From: Halalkalicoccus tibetensis
GTDB taxonomy: Archaea; Halobacteriota; Halobacteria; Halobacteriales; Halalkalicoccaceae
DNA: 64,000 nt
Assembly (NCBI RefSeq): GCF_037996645.1
Contig: NZ_JBBMXV010000006.1
Coordinates: 186,001-250,000 of the forward strand
Reading direction: 5' to 3'
This document shows, in pieces, positions 17,668 to 57,610 of this stretch (its first letter is position 1; each line of letters opens with the position of its first letter). Both the position numbers and the translations under genes were made by a program. A model generated the notes under the pieces. That model was not told where the DNA came from and searched no databases. It worked only from the letters and a program-made list of their open reading frames with translations.

Positions 17668-18343
17668 TTATATGAGAAGTAGTAGTGTTGTCACGGCAGG
17701 GGCTTCAGTTGTAGCTACCCAATAAATGATCTCAAACTGGATTGCATTGAATAATCCATGGACTGTCGCGGGCACTACGAGGTTGCCACTATACTCATAG
17801 CTCGCGCCGAGTACGACGCTCAGAGCCAAGTAGGTAATGAGTGTTAAAATTAGTCCTTCACCAGTGAGCGAGCCGAGATGGGCAAGCGCAAAAATGAGAC
17901 TAGCAATAACAATTCCGAGAAGAATACCGAGCCGGAGTCGTAAGATCTGTTGAATGACGCCTCGAAAGAGTAATTCTTCGCCGGGTCCCACTAATAGAAG
18001 TGATTTGTGATTAAAATAGCGAATAGCATGAAGAGTCCACCGCCGATCCAACCAAGGTCCGAAATTTGGGATAGTCAAGAAGAAGAAAATCAATCCCCTC
18101 GTTGCGAGTCGAGATATAGATTAGCGCGACCGAGCCGAAACCAAGCCCTTGGAGGGTGACCGTACTGATAACAATCCGTAGACTCGGTTGGTCAAAAACG
18201 CTAAAGCCGAATAGTAAGAGAGCGTTGCTGGTAAGAAGCATAAATAATGTTCCGACTCCAAACCCAGCGAATCCAATCAGAAGGCAGACGCCTACTGCTC
18301 TTATAGTCGCTAGTGAATCAATCTCCGTTGTTTGAATACCCAT
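17668..18343 (-). pseudogene. CPBP-family intramembrane protease, broken
   Basis: From the ATG at 18343 the first frame gives about 90 residues with two hydrophobic helices and then runs out at about 18011. A second frame, overlapping it, carries the catalytic region: GPGEELLFRG, a histidine in FALAHLGSLTG and VHGLFNA, down to a stop at 17668. At least one frameshift, and probably a deletion around 18010-18100, separates them. The active-site part is preserved, so decay may be recent. Third CPBP member in this region. Confidence 0.75.
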
Positions 18344-18795: not shown

Positions 18796-19422
18796 CTAAC
18801 TACTCAGACGCTCCCATTCGCCTCCTGAACAACACCGTCCACGCCCTAACGATCCATTGATAGCCGCATATCCTACACAGGGAACGCACGAAGCAAGTGT
18901 GGGTGCAATAGCACATGCTGAGCAGGTGAGTCCAGCATTTTCAGCAACATCCTCAGCGCAGTCAAGATCGATACTGCCAGTGCAGTAGTATCCGTCTACT
19001 GTTGGTCTTTGTGCCGACACATCACCTTCCTCTTCTTCCACATACCCAACTAGTTCATCGTTTTCCTCATTCTTGACAAATGATCCCTCTCCTTCATTGT
19101 CCGGAACAATCGTATACTCATCAGGAAGGTCATCAGAGCTACTAGAAGCCGCTCCTGGAAAGCTGCCTGCTGCAATCAATGCTGCGATTGCTGTTCCACT
19201 ACTAGCAAGTAGTTGACGACGACTACTAGGATTATTCCGCTCCTCTCCTGCTGCTTTGGCCGTCTCTAAGCAACCACCACATGACCCCGCATCATTCACT
19301 CTCTGTAGGAGTGCATCAGCGTGTGCGTCGATGGCATTTTTTTCTTCGGACTGCTGGTGAATGTTCTGTTCAGTTTGGTCGGAATTACTGCTCTGAAGGA
19401 CATCAAGTAGTTTGTTTTTCAT
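18796..19422 (-). CDS. Halocin C8-like precursor (candidate antimicrobial peptide)
   Basis: A 208-residue precursor. A Tat-type signal lies internally (SSRRQLLASSG, R68-R69, then a hydrophobic stretch to about 91), after a 65-residue polar leader with CGGC at 48-51. An acidic linker follows, then a cysteine-rich C-terminus from about residue 138 with eight cysteines (147, 155, 167, 170, 179, 182, 197, 198), small residues and no charge clusters in the core. This is the layout of halocin C8 precursors, whose mature peptide is a C-terminal, disulfide-rich 76-residue fragment. The leader is shorter than in the C8 immunity-bearing precursor. A+T-rich promoter sequence (TTATTATTATAAGATAAAA, about 19525-19545 on the opposite strand) lies some 100 bases upstream. 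Activity is inferred, not shown. Confidence 0.68.
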   Translation of the reverse strand: MKNKLLDVLQSSNSDQTEQNIHQQSEEKNAIDAHADALLQRVNDAGSCGGCLETAKAAGEERNNPSSRRQLLASSGTAIAALIAAGSFPGAASSSSDDLPDEYTIVPDNEGEGSFVKNEENDELVGYVEEEEGDVSAQRPTVDGYYCTGSIDLDCAEDVAENAGLTCSACAIAPTLASCVPCVGYAAINGSLGRGRCCSGGEWERLSS

Positions 19423-19927
19423 TGGTTACACTCTGATTACTAAGAACGTCTAGACGCGGGGATATCGTTCATCCGTGACCGCATCAGCCACTTACACGAC
19501 CAGACGTTCCACTTGGTCATTTTATCTTATAATAATAAAAGTAATTAACTATCATATATAATACTATTCGCTATAGTAATACAACCTATCTCGAACCGTT
19601 GAATGCGTTGAGGAGAAACATTCACTCACCCATCAACGAGCGCGGACTGGCGTGTTCATTCAAATGAAATGGCGGTTAACGGGAATGGCTAAAGAACACG
19701 ACGTCGTTGAGTTGAGAAGACAGAGATCGTGCATGATCTCCATTCAGATAACACAGATTAAATCGACCATCCCAGACTTCGACCGCGCGACGACGGGCGC
19801 GAGTAAGATGAGCACGAGAGTAGAATCGTCTGCGGTTATTCGAGCGGGGGTAATCAGTGCGTAGGGCCGACTTCTCTGAGCATTTAGAGTTCGGCACAAA
19901 ATTAATAAGACTGGGAGTTATATTATT

Positions 19928-20866
19928 ATTGCCGGAGACGTTCCCTCGGTCCGGCAATCGCGTGATACCAGCCTCTCCGATTCGGAGAAATTTTCTACCG
20001 AAAATTCAGTGAGCGATCATGATCTGCTTTCTTGCTTGTGAGTGTTCTAAGTAGTACAACAATTTCCAGGGTAAATCGGGTACTGTATTAGCGTGGTGTG
20101 GAGTAATCGTCGTTAATCCGGATACATCCATAGCTTTTACTCGATAGACATTGATGGTTCAGAGGAGCGCCTTCTGGCAAACCATCTGTCGACCCGTTGG
20201 TTGCATGGGCGCTCCGTTGCATCACTTCGCGGATCGGGGCTCCTACTCCCCGATCCAGAAGTCCCATACTATAGTGACTAACAAGGAGTAGATAACTCCG
20301 CTGAACATCAACTGCCTAAACACATCAATAGATTTTAATCACTGGGTGTCAACATCCAACACGGGTACTAGCTGTTCAGACATGGCGGCTCCGTACCCCG
20401 TATCCGTGATGGCTGGTTCCACACCAGCCCCACGCCCCATCGTAAGAGTTCGCAGCTCAACATCGTCCTCTCTGTCCAGCTAGTAATTCATCGTTCAGCC
20501 GAACAAGTCCGTACTTTTTTCACGGAAAGTGTTGTCGACTAGCACGGGAACAGGATCCAGCGTGGCCCATTGCAATCCTGACGCCGTCGAGAGCTGGGAA
20601 ACCCTGGCTCTCGTCCCATCGCTGCATCGACAAACAGACGAATCCTTACCTTGTTCAACATCGCCCTCCCGGTACCTGCTGAACAAGAGGGAGGCAACTA
20701 CTCATACGAGGCAAACGAGTTTTTCTCCTCAACCCTGTTAACTAAGTTCAAAGGAGTTGTAGCCCTCGCTGCCGGCTTGATCTCGATCAACTGCCGGCTC
20801 GAAACCACTCGAACCTATCCCTCGCCCCGGATAGGTTTTCTACGGCATAAGGGCAAGTTTTTGCCC
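19928..20866. ncRNA. Hairpin-rich gene-free region, candidate structured RNA
   Basis: No credible ORF in about 940 bases, but many strong inverted repeats: ATTGCCGGA/TCCGGCAAT (19928-19958), TCTCCG/CGGAGA (19974-19988), AATTTTC/GAAAATT (19989-20006), GGAGCGCC/GGCGCTCC enclosing GCAAACCA/TGGTTGC (20164-20215), GGATCGGGG/CCCCGATCC (20231-20256), TACTAGCTG/CAGCTAGTA (20366-20485) enclosing GGCTGGT/ACCAGCC (20411-20429), CGAGAGC/GCTCTCG (20588-20613), CTTGTTCA/TGAACAAG (20650-20687), GCCGGCTTGATC/GATCAA..GCCGGC (20771-20798), AACCTATCC/GGATAGGTT (20812-20837) and GGGCAA/TTGCCC (20851-20866). Several perfect 9-bp stems with short loops are far above chance. Strand and function unknown: a structured RNA, or a DNA site acting as single strand. 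Confidence 0.45.
20649..20687. repeat. CCTTGTTCAACA dyad (one of four)
   Basis: CCTTGTTCAACA (20649-20660) faces TGCTGAACAAG (20678 onward). It is a variant of the dyads at 22390, 55821 and 62643, here embedded in the hairpin-rich region. Confidence 0.5.
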
Positions 20867-20963
20867 GCACGGCCGACGCGCACAACACCTCCGCTTGAAT
20901 TGGCTAGAAATCTACCGACCACACTATTTGTCTGTTGAGATTTCGTGGGTCTCCTGAGAACAG

Positions 20964-21497
20964 TCAATGATCCGGTTCACCGACAGGCGCTTCGAGTCGG
21001 TCGACCTGCAATATGAGGATCCTGTTGGTCGTATCGATACCATCGAGAGTTCCTTCGACCACAAGCTTTGAGAGTGGCGTTGGGCCAACCGTGACCGAAT
21101 CACCGTTCTGGTAATCGTCAACTGATCCTTGGACATGAACCTCCGCACGACACTGTTCGGGATGTTGAACGCTCGAGAGATCGATTTCACGGATATTGGC
21201 ATTTTCAACGGCCTCACCGTTGTGAGTCAGTGAAACCGCGGCCGGTTCCTCTAGTTGATCCACGTCCAGTACCTCAAACGCTGTCACTGTCGGCTTGTAC
21301 CCTCCTTTTGGACCAGGAACTCCCTCGACCAACTGCAGTGCTTTTAGACTCTGCATCTGATTACGGATCGTCCCTGGGTTACGGTCGATTGCTTCAGCTA
21401 TCTCATCGCCTTTCACTGGATTCTCTCTGTTACGGTGTCGGTCAACGAGTGCAGTGAGGATACTCTTCTGACTCGCTGTAAGCTCAATTGCGGACAT
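20964..21497 (-). CDS. Rrf2-like haloarchaeal transcriptional regulator
   Basis: A 177-residue protein. The N-terminal winged helix (ELTASQKSILTALVDRHRN, then VKGDEIAEAIDRNPGTIRNQ) has the form annotated in haloarchaea as Rrf2-family. The following ~100 residues form a beta-rich domain with EIDLSSVQHPEQCRAEVHVQ and VTVGPTPLSKLVVEGTLDG. No Fe-S cysteine triad of true Rrf2 sensors is visible. The ATG at 21497 is chosen, because the 36 extra residues upstream are not conserved-looking. Ligand and targets are unknown. Confidence 0.78.
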   Translation of the reverse strand: MSAIELTASQKSILTALVDRHRNRENPVKGDEIAEAIDRNPGTIRNQMQSLKALQLVEGVPGPKGGYKPTVTAFEVLDVDQLEEPAAVSLTHNGEAVENANIREIDLSSVQHPEQCRAEVHVQGSVDDYQNGDSVTVGPTPLSKLVVEGTLDGIDTTNRILILQVDRLEAPVGEPDH

Positions 21498-21621
21498 ACC
21501 TCCGTTAGAAGATGATTCGGTAATAACCTGTGCAATCACAGCATGGGCTAACGTACGTATGGCTCTGAAAGAGCTCTTACAGCACAATCGAACAACTAGA
21601 CCCAATCTATTTAGTAATAGA

Positions 21622-21984
21622 ATGACCGAAAGAGAACCGATGGCTATAGATCAATCGTCTTCTCCATCTCTTAGCGATCAACTGGCAACTCTCCAGTCTG
21701 ACGATCCACGACGATACGCTCTCCTCAAACGCTATGTCGACAAACTCGAAGAACTTCTGGAAGACGCTGACCGCAACTACGCCTCGGCAAAACAGCTCCA
21801 CTCACAGTGGGAGGACCCACCGTTTCAACCCCAGATTACTGGCCAGCTGCTCAGCACGGCCGCCACTCTCGAGATTCTACAGGTACATGCCCATCGAAGC
21901 AATCGTAATCGATGCGATCTAACGGCGTACAATCAGACACGCCTGGAACACCTTGCTACTCTTCTCAACACTAACCACGACTAA
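21622..21984 (+). CDS. Hypothetical helical protein
   Basis: A 120-residue, mostly alpha-helical protein: YALLKRYVDKLEELLEDADRN looks like a coiled-coil segment, followed by LLSTAATLEILQVHAHR. No cysteines, signal or membrane helix. It is divergent from the Rrf2-like gene and convergent with the PadR gene. The ATG at 21622 is preferred; 21640 is an alternative. No function assigned. Confidence 0.55.
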   Translation: MTEREPMAIDQSSSPSLSDQLATLQSDDPRRYALLKRYVDKLEELLEDADRNYASAKQLHSQWEDPPFQPQITGQLLSTAATLEILQVHAHRSNRNRCDLTAYNQTRLEHLATLLNTNHD

Positions 21985-22005
21985 CTAGTCGAACACAACG
22001 TTTTG

Positions 22006-22308
22006 TCAGCCAGTCTCAGACTCGGGACCCTCCAGCTCATCAAGATACTGGTCTTCCCAGTCGCGGCGCGCTTGAACTTCCCGACGTCCCCGGTCGGTGA
22101 GTTCGTACTTGTTCGTTCGCCGGTCAAGCTCACCTTTCTTCACCAATCCCTTGTCAACGAGCGTATCGAGGTTCGGATACAACCGTCCGTGATGGACCTC
22201 CGCTTCGTAATACTCCTCGAGAGCATCTTTTATCTGAAGCCCGGCCGGCTCTTCGAGCCCCCCAATAGCATAGAGCAGGTCACGTTGGAAGCCTGTCAAG
22301 TCATCCAT
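22006..22308 (-). CDS. PadR-family transcriptional regulator
   Basis: A 100-residue PadR protein. The winged helix shows FQRDLLYAIGGLEEPAGLQI, then HHGRLYPNLDTLVDKGLVKK, the signature of the family, and the wing KYELTDRGRREV. The C-terminal helix DWEDQYLDELEG is short, as in haloarchaeal PadR proteins. Typically a repressor responding to small molecules. The divergent β-helix lipoprotein gene begins about 250 bases upstream. Confidence 0.85.
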   Translation of the reverse strand: MDDLTGFQRDLLYAIGGLEEPAGLQIKDALEEYYEAEVHHGRLYPNLDTLVDKGLVKKGELDRRTNKYELTDRGRREVQARRDWEDQYLDELEGPESETG

Positions 22309-46177: not shown

Positions 46178-46852
46178 ATGGGCCATATTGAGTTCGATAT
46201 GGACGCTCGCTCGAACGACTCGTCGAAAGCTCCGTCCGAGACCGAGACGGCCTGTTGCAAAGTCGAACGGACAGCGACAGCGTTCGATATCGAGGATGTC
46301 GGCACGGAACTTGTCGACCGTCGGCGGCATCAAGACAGCTATCGCGCGATTGCGGAGCACCTCAATGTTCGCGTCATCGAAGCGGAACTGGACCGTGCCG
46401 ACGTCACCAGCGGCCGTTCCGTTCACGCTGCCCTCGTCGGAGAGGACGTTGCCGAGGCGGTCTACCGGGTTCTTCGGACTGATTCCGGGTCGGACATTCG
46501 CCGCGCGGAACTGCGTGCACGACTAAGTGAGGCAGGGATCGATGTTGACCGTCTCGAGTCGGCGTTCGTCTCTCACGTCACGATCCGCTCACACCTCCAA
46601 AACTGCGTTTCCGTCGATCCCGACAGGTCCCCTCCATCGTTCGAACAAACCGTAAACACAACCCAGTGGGCCCAAACTCGCGCCTCAAACGTCGTCCAGA
46701 GTGCGCTTGACCGAGCCGTCAAGACCGGTCAGCTACAGACCGGCGACCTCGAGGCGGAGCTCTTTGTTCGAGTTACGTGCGGCGACTGTGGCGATACATT
46801 TTATCTGACCGAACTACTAGAGAGCAGATCCTGTTCATGCTCTGAAGCGTGA
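46178..46852 (+). CDS. rdfA: Rod-determining factor RdfA family protein
   Basis: A 224-residue protein of the haloarchaeal RdfA family, whose studied member helps Haloferax adopt rod shape. Typical regions: IAEHLNVRVIEAELDRADV, VYRVLRTDSGSDIRRAELRARL and FVSHVTIRSHLQNC. A C-terminal zinc knuckle shows CGDC and CSC. RdfA genes frequently neighbour archaea-specific SMC-related genes, as here. The start at 46178 may be replaced by 46199. This copy on an accessory replicon is probably a paralogue of the chromosomal gene. Confidence 0.8.
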   Translation: MGHIEFDMDARSNDSSKAPSETETACCKVERTATAFDIEDVGTELVDRRRHQDSYRAIAEHLNVRVIEAELDRADVTSGRSVHAALVGEDVAEAVYRVLRTDSGSDIRRAELRARLSEAGIDVDRLESAFVSHVTIRSHLQNCVSVDPDRSPPSFEQTVNTTQWAQTRASNVVQSALDRAVKTGQLQTGDLEAELFVRVTCGDCGDTFYLTELLESRSCSCSEA

Positions 46853-46943
46853 ACGACCGAAAACAGCGGCAGGTGCCGGTTCTGCGGCGTTTCGGCGGGG
46901 GTCGACGAAACGTATAACGGTGGCTGTGTAATACGGTACCACA

Positions 46944-48908
46944 ATGAAAGAGGGACGTTGCTCCGACCCCTGCCATTCGATCTCTCCGCCATCGGAGTTT
47001 GTCGAGCAGGCGAACGTCACCTCTCCCGAAATCTACGAGACGTTCGAAGAGGAGTGGCCGACCTGTTGGGAACGGGCAGCGTCGCTGCTCGAGTGGCATC
47101 AGTCACACTCGACGGTTCTCGAACCGACGACGAAACCGCCGTACTACCGATGGTTCGTCGGTGGGACACTCAATGCATCGTACAACTGCGTGGATCGCCA
47201 CGTTGAAGCGGGTCGTGGTGACCAGCCTGCGATCCAGTGGGTCCGGGAAACTGGCGGAACAGAGACGTACACGTACGCGGACCTTGAGCGGAACGTAAAT
47301 GCCGTCGCGGCGTCGCTCCGGAAAATTGGAGTCAACACGGGCGACACTGTGGCACTCTACTTACCGCGTCTGCCCGCGCTCCCGATAGTGATGCTCGCTG
47401 CCGCTCGGCTCGGGGCTCCACATGTCGTCGTCTTCGCGGAGTACTCCGCGGACGTCCTCGCCTCGTTTATGGCTGAAACGGACGCCGAAGTCCTCGTTAC
47501 CGCGGATGGCTACCACCAGAACGGCGCGTTTCACCCACTCGAGCCGAAGGCCAACCGGGCTATTGAGCAGCTCGAGTGGGATGTGACGACGGTTTCGGTC
47601 GATCGTACTGGGCACGATAGCGAAGGCTGGAGCGCTGAGTACGACTACGATGAACTCCGATCGAGACACTGGGATAGCAGCGTCGAACCGGTCTCGAGGG
47701 AAAGCGACGAGCCGTTGTTTGTCTGCTATGCGTCCGGCCCCACGGGCGAACCGGTCGGAATGGAACACGCGACGGGATCATATCTCTCGTACGTCGCGTG
47801 GACCACACACGCAGTCCTCGATGTGGCCCCTGGTGACACGCTGTGGTGTCCTGCCGGTATCGAATGGATTACTGGTCATTCCTACATCGTCTACGGACCA
47901 CTCGCTCTCGGGGCGACCACCCTTCTCTACGAGGGTGCACCGGCGTACCCCGACAAAACCCGACCCTGGGAGATCATCGCGGAAAACGAGGTCACGCAGT
48001 TCTACACGACGCCGACGGCGATTCGAGCATTCATGGAGTGGGGGTCGGAGTACCCAAATGCACACGATCTCTCGTCGCTCAAACTGCTTGGAACGGTCGG
48101 CCAGCGAATCGAGCCCGAGACGTGGTGGTGGTTTTACGAACACGTCGGCGGCAGGTCGTGTCCGATAGTCGATACATGGTACCAGGCCGAAAACGGTGGT
48201 ATCGCGATCTCGACGCTGCCGGCTATTCATGAAATGCGCCCCGGATCGGTGGGCAAACCTCTTCCGGGAATCGACGCCGAGATCGTCGACGCAACGGGCG
48301 CTCCAGTTCCGGCTGGCCAGTCAGGGTATCTCGTATTTGAACGACCATGGCCGGGGTTCTTTCGGCCAGTCGGGGACGAAGCGGCAGCCACCGAACTCTG
48401 GACGGAATTCGGCGATCCGCCCAATGAGTGGACCTACTTCTCCGAGGATAGCGCCGTTCGTGAGGATGGGTACATGACCATACTCGGTCGAACTGACGAT
48501 GTCATCAATATCGGTCATTACACAAAAAATCGGGTTCACGTCAGTGAAATCGAACGCGTGATTGAGTCGCTCGACGAGATCGACGACGTCGCAGTAATCT
48601 GTGGGCGACACGAGATCATGGGCGAAGCTCCGTACGCGTTCGTCGTTTGCGAATCAGACCGACCGACGGATGTTCGATCAAAAGTCAGAGAAACAGTCAC
48701 GCGAGAACTTGCGGCGCCGATCTGTCCGGTTGACGTCTACCTCGTCCCCGAACTCCCACGGACATACTCCGGTGGTGTACTCCGGGAAGCTCTCGCCGAC
48801 CTCCTCGACGGGGAACGGCTCGGAGATACGGAACTACTCCGAAATCCGGACGTTCTCGATAATATCGCCGTCGAGATCCGTCATCAGCGAACGAGCCCCA
48901 CCGAGTGA
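46944..48908 (+). CDS. Acetyl-CoA-synthetase-like protein with altered active site
   Basis: A 654-residue protein of the AMP-forming acetyl-CoA synthetase family at full length, with the ACS N-terminal domain (YYRWFVGGTLNASYNCVDRH). Key motifs have drifted. The P-loop YTSGSTGKPKG is YASGPTGEPVG (residues 262-272), losing both lysines. The DTWWQTETGG motif is DTWYQAENGG. The C-terminal catalytic loop PxTRSGK is PRTYSGG (G611 replaces lysine). Without these residues adenylation of acetate is unlikely. Either a pseudoenzyme or a protein adapted to another job; the open reading frame is intact, arguing against random decay. It is followed closely by the thermosome-like gene. Confidence 0.82.
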   Translation: MKEGRCSDPCHSISPPSEFVEQANVTSPEIYETFEEEWPTCWERAASLLEWHQSHSTVLEPTTKPPYYRWFVGGTLNASYNCVDRHVEAGRGDQPAIQWVRETGGTETYTYADLERNVNAVAASLRKIGVNTGDTVALYLPRLPALPIVMLAAARLGAPHVVVFAEYSADVLASFMAETDAEVLVTADGYHQNGAFHPLEPKANRAIEQLEWDVTTVSVDRTGHDSEGWSAEYDYDELRSRHWDSSVEPVSRESDEPLFVCYASGPTGEPVGMEHATGSYLSYVAWTTHAVLDVAPGDTLWCPAGIEWITGHSYIVYGPLALGATTLLYEGAPAYPDKTRPWEIIAENEVTQFYTTPTAIRAFMEWGSEYPNAHDLSSLKLLGTVGQRIEPETWWWFYEHVGGRSCPIVDTWYQAENGGIAISTLPAIHEMRPGSVGKPLPGIDAEIVDATGAPVPAGQSGYLVFERPWPGFFRPVGDEAAATELWTEFGDPPNEWTYFSEDSAVREDGYMTILGRTDDVINIGHYTKNRVHVSEIERVIESLDEIDDVAVICGRHEIMGEAPYAFVVCESDRPTDVRSKVRETVTRELAAPICPVDVYLVPELPRTYSGGVLREALADLLDGERLGDTELLRNPDVLDNIAVEIRHQRTSPTE

Positions 48909-56380: not shown

Positions 56381-57610
56381 ATGCGCTACAACTACAGGTA
56401 TCGACTCAAACCCACCGACGAACTCCACGAGCGGTTAGCGTGGACCGTCGATACCTGCCGGCAGGTCTACAACCACTTCCTTCACCGACTCAACCGAGTA
56501 GACGGAACCTCCGCCTACTCCGAACAGTTACTCCTACCGAACCTCAAACGCGAGTGGTCCGACCTGAAGGACGTTCACTCGAAGGTCCTTCAGAAAGTCG
56601 TACAACGTCTGTACGACAACCTCTCGACGTTAAAGGGGCGGAAGGACAACGGCTACCGCATCGGCGAACTCAAGTGGAAAGCCCCGCAGGAATATCGCTC
56701 GATCAAGTACAGTCAAACCGGCTTCAAGCTCAACAACACGAGCGGTCGGCCTGTACTCTCTCTTTCCAAGATCGGCGACGTTCCGATGGTCTACCACCGC
56801 GAGGTTCCCGACGACGCCACGATCAAAGAGGTCGTCGTGAAGCAGGAACCCACGGGCGAATGGTTCGCTGTTCTCGGGATCGAAACCGAGAACGACGCGC
56901 CACCGAAGCCCGAGAATCCCGAGCGGTGCGTCGGCATCGACGTGGGTATCCTGAAGTACGCTCACGACAGCGACGGAACCGCCGTCGAAGGTCCCGACCT
57001 CTCCGACGAACGCGAGCGGTTGGAGCGCGCACAACGCGACCTCTCGCGGAAACAACACGGCTCGGCGAACTACCACAAACAACAGCGCGTCGTGGCCCAA
57101 CGCCACGCCGACCTGAAGCGAAAGCGTCGGGACTTCCTTCACAAGCTCTCGAACTACTACGCTCGGGAATACGACCTTGTGGCGGTCGAAGATCTCGACG
57201 CGAAAGGTCTGATGGAACTTCCATCGAACAGCCGCAACCGTGCCTCGGCGTCATGGGCAACGTTCCTCCGAATGTTGGAGTACAAGTGCGACCGCGAAGG
57301 CACGCATTTCGTCGCCGTCGATCCGCGCGGGACGACGAAAGAGTGTTCCAACTGTGGCGTTTCGACCGACAAACCGCTGTGGGTTCGGGAACACTCGTGT
57401 CCTTCGTGCCGGTTCGAGGCGGACCGCGACCTCAACGCCGCCTACAACATCCTTTCTCGCGGACTCACCGAAATAGGGGTGGTTCACCCCGATTCAATGC
57501 CTGCGGAGACTGCGCTCCCTGTGGGGACCGATTCGGTTCCTGCAAAGCGCGTCGTGGAAACAGGAAGCCCCGTCCTCAGCGAGGCCGTCAGGCCGAGCAG
57601 GGCGGGGTAG
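56381..57610 (+). CDS. tnpB: TnpB RNA-guided nuclease of IS1341-type element
   Basis: A 409-residue TnpB. The RuvC-like catalytic residues are all visible: D187 in CVGIDVGILKYA, E270 in AVEDLDAKGL and D350 in ADRDLNAAYN. The zinc ribbon has CSNC and CPSC. The N-terminal part starts with the usual YNYRYRLKP and VDTCRQVYNHFL. The protein is intact. TnpB proteins use an RNA transcribed from the element's right end to cut DNA next to a target-adjacent motif. Long open frames in other registers across this gene are shadows. Confidence 0.93.
   Translation: MRYNYRYRLKPTDELHERLAWTVDTCRQVYNHFLHRLNRVDGTSAYSEQLLLPNLKREWSDLKDVHSKVLQKVVQRLYDNLSTLKGRKDNGYRIGELKWKAPQEYRSIKYSQTGFKLNNTSGRPVLSLSKIGDVPMVYHREVPDDATIKEVVVKQEPTGEWFAVLGIETENDAPPKPENPERCVGIDVGILKYAHDSDGTAVEGPDLSDERERLERAQRDLSRKQHGSANYHKQQRVVAQRHADLKRKRRDFLHKLSNYYAREYDLVAVEDLDAKGLMELPSNSRNRASASWATFLRMLEYKCDREGTHFVAVDPRGTTKECSNCGVSTDKPLWVREHSCPSCRFEADRDLNAAYNILSRGLTEIGVVHPDSMPAETALPVGTDSVPAKRVVETGSPVLSEAVRPSRAG

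Follow-up and report, generated by a model that had tools for sequence, protein, structure and literature searches.

Gene neighbourhood of the hairpin field

The window, the whole stretch of 64,000 nucleotides analysed here, corresponds to C6:186001–250000 of the 3.6-Mb genome of Halalkalicoccus tibetensis, and its gene content looks like that of a conjugative plasmid. A hairpin-rich field lies at 19928–20866, and its centre (20112–20613) is an array of three paralogous units. VirB4-like and TraD-like ATPases are encoded at 27.3–35.6 kb, starting about 7 kb downstream of the array, followed by TnpB of the IS605 type (56381–57607), an Orc1/Cdc6 gene (57.7–59.0 kb, 37 kb from the array) and ParA (63 kb). 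None of the nearby ORFs that were tested matched a relaxase or a Rep protein, and the only tyrosine recombinase-like gene seen, with a weak match to integron/XerA models, is 40 kb off.

The field is flanked on its right by a winged-helix regulator gene (HrcA_DNA-bdg/Rrf2-like HTH; Pfam PF03444, E = 1.2e-34) at 20964–21497 on the − strand, convergent with the array. Members of this regulator family were found in 387 of the 392 Halobacteriales genomes, with five copies in the present one, where another gene comes directly after the chromosomal copy. Next come a 141-aa ORF of a plasmid-associated family (21559–21984, + strand), by which the nearest plasmid relatives are from Halalkalicoccus, and a PadR-family regulator (22006–22308, − strand). 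The order regulator gene, 141-aa ORF and PadR gene forms a repeated module (20964–22308); in plasmids of H. jeotgali, the module has a TRAM-domain gene instead of the regulator, beside orc1/cdc6 genes. To the left of the field, the − strand of 18796–19422 encodes a small precursor of the secreted type whose C-terminus is rich in Cys. It has no family match, and we take it to be reminiscent of the halocin C8 type of microhalocins. Rce1-like CAAX protease ORFs adjoin it at 17668–18343 (− strand), where the protease gene seems to be spread over two overlapping ORFs that differ in frame, possibly owing to a frameshift.

Hairpin content and tandem units

The preliminary description presented the field as a stretch of strong hairpins without any gene, and the stem counts bear this out. 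Ten perfect stems of at least 7 bp with loops of 3–40 nt were found in 19928–20866, compared with a mean of 1.7 and a maximum of 5 in 200 dinucleotide shuffles, none of which reaches the count of the field. For stems of at least 8 bp, the corresponding numbers are 5 and 0.39. Three 9-bp stems (19928/19950, 20231/20248 and 20812/20829) compare with 0.085 in the shuffles, and the fourth perfect 9-bp pair described before (20366–20374 with 20477–20485) exists across 102 nt. The folding energy of 981 nt gives z values of −4.5 for the + strand and −4.8 for the − strand. This stem density is exceptional within the surrounding plasmid-like region of ~50% GC, where a few coding stretches (e.g. 46801–47400 and 56501–57100) come near it. 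However, GC-rich chromosomal coding DNA (about 70% GC) often holds 5–10 stems per 400 nt; thus, a function cannot be concluded from the number of stems by itself. Within the field, the stems are densest in 19928–20319 (6 in 392 nt), and the part with relatives elsewhere in the genome contains only 2 in 295 nt.

The ORFs inside the field (70 and 95 aa on the + strand, 63 aa on the − strand) have no match in Pfam, and the 95-aa ORF has none by tblastn against plasmids, so the earlier view that the field lacks a credible gene holds. In a search with the Rfam covariance models, the window gave no match, and 19880–20960 was without one even at E values of up to 1; the preliminary description had recognized no RNase P, SRP or group II intron core.

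At least three related units, each of about 190 bases, follow one another in the array; they start at approximately 20112 (U2), 20314 (U3) and 20493 (U3b). Each unit begins with a leader of ~50 nt, which is followed by a two-tier hairpin (P1) and a second hairpin (P2). In U2, the promoter-like leader (CCGGATACATCCATAGCTTTTACTCGATAG..., 20112–20163, + strand) precedes a P1 hairpin at 20164–20215 (+ strand) with a perfect 8-bp outer stem, GGAGCGCC/GGCGCTCC, and an inner stem read from the sequence, GCAAACC/GGTTGC. The P2 hairpin at 20231–20256 (+ strand), GGATCGGGG-CTCCTACT-CCCCGATCC, came from the stem count and has 9 bp; positions 20145–20317 show folding z values of −4.5 and −4.8. In U3, the leader (...ACACATCAATAGATTTTAATCAC..., 20314–20362, + strand) is followed by P1 at 20363–20398 (+ strand), composed of GGGTAC/GTACCC, the inner stem AGCTG/CGGCT and the loop GTTCAGACAT, and by P2 at 20411–20429 (+ strand), GGCTGG/CCAGCC. 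Finally, the leader of U3b (GCCGAACAAGTCCGTACTTTTTTCACGG, 20493–20543, + strand) includes a small stem, TCCGT/ACGGA, at 20508–20526. Its P1 hairpin, P4, at 20544–20587 (+ strand) pairs ACGG...CAGGAT with ATCCTG...CCGT around a conserved GTGGCCCATTG loop side, and its P2 hairpin, P5, at 20588–20613 (+ strand) is CGAGAGC/GCTCTCG.

Over ~50 nt, the three leaders align nearly gap-free as far as P1, which opens with GGG in U3 and U3b and with GGAG in U2. Their A/T core, TTTT, lies at a constant 29–31 nt before P1 in all units. Local Smith–Waterman alignment of U2 with the copies of U3 and U3b in a paralogous array (L002, see below) gives z = 7.1 and 6.6, with 0 of 300 shuffles reaching these scores, and the start regions of U3 and U3b align with z = 4.2 (0 of 300). 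When U2 was left out of the training set, a weight matrix gave the U2 leader a score of 27.4, compared with a shuffle maximum of 16.4. A search of the genome with the leader model returned exactly nine sites, all within these arrays.

The outer hairpins are not part of this arrangement. Those at 19928–20006, ATTGCCGGA/TCCGGCAAT, TCTCCG/CGGAGA and AATTTTC/GAAAATT, are real stems with neither a copy elsewhere in the genome nor similarity to the units. Those at 20650–20863, CTTGTTCA/TGAACAAG, GCCGGC/GCCGGC, AACCTATCC/GGATAGGTT and GGGCAA/TTGCCC, form an insert absent from the other copies of the array; one of them shows weak similarity to a hairpin that lies upstream of the L002 array (local alignment, z = 2.2). 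Two of the three short-loop 9-bp stems belong to hairpins without detectable relatives. We considered the 19928 region (U1) and 20735–20866 (U4) as extra units, and both were rejected for lack of sequence similarity to the others.

Paralogous copies and base pairing

When the whole field was searched against the genome, only its centre (20319–20606) recurred, at three other places: L002 (C6:307634), L003 (C5:666) and L004 (C6:75788). Three of the four main copies therefore lie on the 308-kb contig C6 and one on C5. The copies are 75–76% identical to the window copy and about 90% identical to one another, and they carry two units each, compared with three in the window. Their homology with the window restarts exactly at the U3 leader; upstream of it, L002–L004 are hairpin-rich but of different sequence. 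All four main copies are 3′ of a plasmid copy of the winged-helix regulator gene. A sequence-only model also retrieved a fifth, diverged U3 hairpin domain, L082 (C3:549404; E = 4.3e-6). The loop pattern GTTCAGACATNNNGGCT, with zero mismatches, occurs at exactly five sites in the genome, one per copy, and the 10-nt loop GTTCAGACAT is invariant in all five. Other matches were set aside: L005 (C1:676858) is a chance match within a molybdenum-guanylyltransferase-like ORF, L042 and L043 are weak model matches with no other support, and a Hammerhead_II match upstream of the L004 array (L004:1410–1470, − strand; 23.1 bits against a threshold of 37, E = 0.39) is probably due to chance.

The preliminary description proposed a search for compensatory changes, and among the four or five copies five base pairs were found to be changed on both sides. 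In U3, the P1 stem is intact in L082, with GGGCAC/GTGCCC in place of GGGTAC/GTACCC owing to a T–A to C–G double change. The P2 hairpin, which is found in all copies, shows a G–C to A–U double change in L082, where two other P2 pairs are broken. In P5, three of the six outer pairs are doubly changed between the window and L002–L004, which have CGGGGC/GCCCCG, and pairing is kept. The inner stem of P4 is preserved in all four copies, and its outer part differs in the window copy. Paired cells amount to 94.1% for P1, the inner stem and P2 and to 94.2% for P3–P5, in alignments with gaps placed by hand and N at single-base indels, and they fall to 27–52% when the structure is slid by 1–3 columns. 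The covariation comes from four or five sequences of one genome with hand-placed gaps, and 38 of 500 and 10 of 500 shuffles reach it. The small indels within P2 between copies argue against coding.

Larger-scale structure did not stand up in the same way. The enclosing pair at 20366–20374 and 20477–20485, TACTAGCTG/CAGCTAGTA, had been taken to suggest an ordered fold; the pair is real in the window, but the fold around it is not supported, since the pair is not kept in L002–L004. A single large RNA with such a fold is likewise not supported, as this pair is not conserved and the field's centre is made of tandem ~190-nt units. The antisense regulator suggested earlier is neither supported nor contradicted by these results. 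The broader proposal of a structured non-coding element gains support from the paralogous copies, the compensatory changes, the invariant loop and the lack of a gene or Rfam match.

We also searched for relatives outside this genome. No convincing relative was found by a DNA search of 146 related genomes or with three models (R1–R3) run against 392 and 382 Halobacteriales genomes, and nothing was found by blastn against plasmids and phages or by exact-pattern scans of viral contigs. The R2 matches in Haloarcula-type and other genomes (27–34 bits and below) overlap long ORFs in the cases inspected, and the top-scoring ones do not have the GTTCAGACAT loop, so that the R2 matches were treated as chance; the R3 matches in other genomes are at chance level (E of about 0.01–0.05). 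Within the data searched, the family is confined to one genome.

This restriction fits the view that the array is functionless, i.e. duplicated, decaying intergenic plasmid DNA with terminator-like or palindromic debris, whose similarity reflects a recent duplication of the regulator module plus gene conversion. The divergence of the L082 hairpin domain and the variation of the outer hairpins among copies agree with this. In addition, L002 and L003, both at contig ends (L003 at the start of C5), are identical across ~427 nt (L002:1280–1706, comprising upstream hairpins and U3), with flanks that are ~9% different. Such identity suggests that gene conversion took place recently, or else that the assembly produced it; therefore, the conservation is partly recent copying. 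However, the double compensatory changes in P5, P1 and P2, the 10-nt loop invariant in all five copies and the homology that restarts exactly at the U3 leader speak against debris, and we regard this explanation as rather unlikely, though it is the likeliest of the alternatives.

Strand, mechanism and comparison with known systems

A tentative reading, which we prefer to the alternatives, is that the units of the array are genes for small structured RNAs, lined up in tandem on the + strand, each RNA with P1 at its 5′ end, as the constant 29–31 nt between TTTT and P1 matches the distance expected in haloarchaea from the TATA box to the transcription start. The haloarchaeal TATA motif is TTWT (PMC4983044), which the TTTT of the leaders fits, and a similar CTTTTGA is present in one tRNA-Leu promoter of this genome. 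A BRE-like CGAAA was not found before the TTTT box of the leaders. A promoter model built from the upstream regions of this genome was uninformative, having converged on a GC-rich pattern typical of coding DNA, and was not used. Base pairing does not favour either strand: a first count by eye suggested the + strand, but the full count of non-standard pairs is 6 with G–U on the + strand and 5 with A–C, equal to G–U on the − strand. With such a 6 to 5 split, an action in DNA is also conceivable.

The hairpins might then act at the DNA level, where they would be recognized in single-stranded or cruciform form at a site for protein binding, recombination or a replication-related process, with the leader as a repeated binding site. 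If RNA is made from neither strand, mismatches should divide evenly between G–T and A–C, as they do here, and both strands fold equally well. The conjugation genes about 7 kb downstream are compatible with such a site, and the identity of L002 and L003 implies that the region recombines. However, three copies on C6 plus one on C5 ill suit a single transfer or replication origin, and this sharing of one contig also makes the single-strand origin or transfer site suggested earlier less likely. Moreover, no relaxase was identified among the tested ORFs beside the array, the Orc1/Cdc6 gene is far away, and the constant spacing from leader to hairpin fits the layout of a promoter and start. Overall, a DNA-level role seems unlikely to us, somewhat more so than functionless debris. 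It is quite improbable that the array, read on the − strand, serves the convergent regulator gene as a structured 3′ untranslated region or as an antisense partner: all four main copies are 3′ of the regulator and in three of the four the array is only about 65 nt past its stop codon, but 350 nt separate the two in the window, L082 has no adjoining regulator gene, another gene directly follows the chromosomal regulator copy, and a transcript of the − strand would need the leader on the opposite side.

We compared the array with described systems. Haloferax volcanii has 395 intergenic start sites (PMC4983044). The array resembles haloarchaeal intergenic small RNAs in being short, non-coding and intergenic with a plausible TTWT-type box; it differs in its tandem paralogous plasmid units with homologous leaders and diverged hairpins, in being known from sequence alone, and in having no sequence relative. 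Like the large ornate RNAs OLE, GOLLD and ROOL, the field is gene-free, hairpin-rich and nearly 1 kb long; unlike them, it has no Rfam match or conserved long-range pairing and is made of separable ~190-nt units. Tandem imperfect hairpins on a mobile replicon also recall integron attC arrays and attC clusters; however, no integron integrase or cassette genes were identified, and the array repeats a leader, not a paired recombination site. Given that further copies of two of the units sit beside the same kind of regulator gene, we tentatively read the units as an undescribed family of genes for small structured RNAs.

In the mechanism we propose, the leader would be a haloarchaeal promoter with its A/T box, TTTT(A), at about −27, driving transcription of a short RNA from the + strand, with predicted starts near 20158, 20360 and 20541, shortly ahead of the first hairpin of each unit. 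The RNA would fold into the two-tier P1 with an exposed loop and the second hairpin, P2, and may act in trans or on the adjacent plasmid module, either through loop pairing to an RNA target or through a bound protein. More speculatively, and with low expectation, the array may represent a new class of plasmid-borne tandem sRNA genes in haloarchaea, in which a shared promoter cassette precedes diverging two-hairpin RNAs whose loops specify different targets, travelling with a duplicated core regulator. To our knowledge, archaeal plasmids have so far yielded few families of structured RNA. If this proposal is true, the array would show in nature how sRNA genes arise through duplication, with a constant leader and changing hairpins, and its tie to plasmid copies of a near-universal haloarchaeal regulator would suggest regulatory interplay between plasmid and host.
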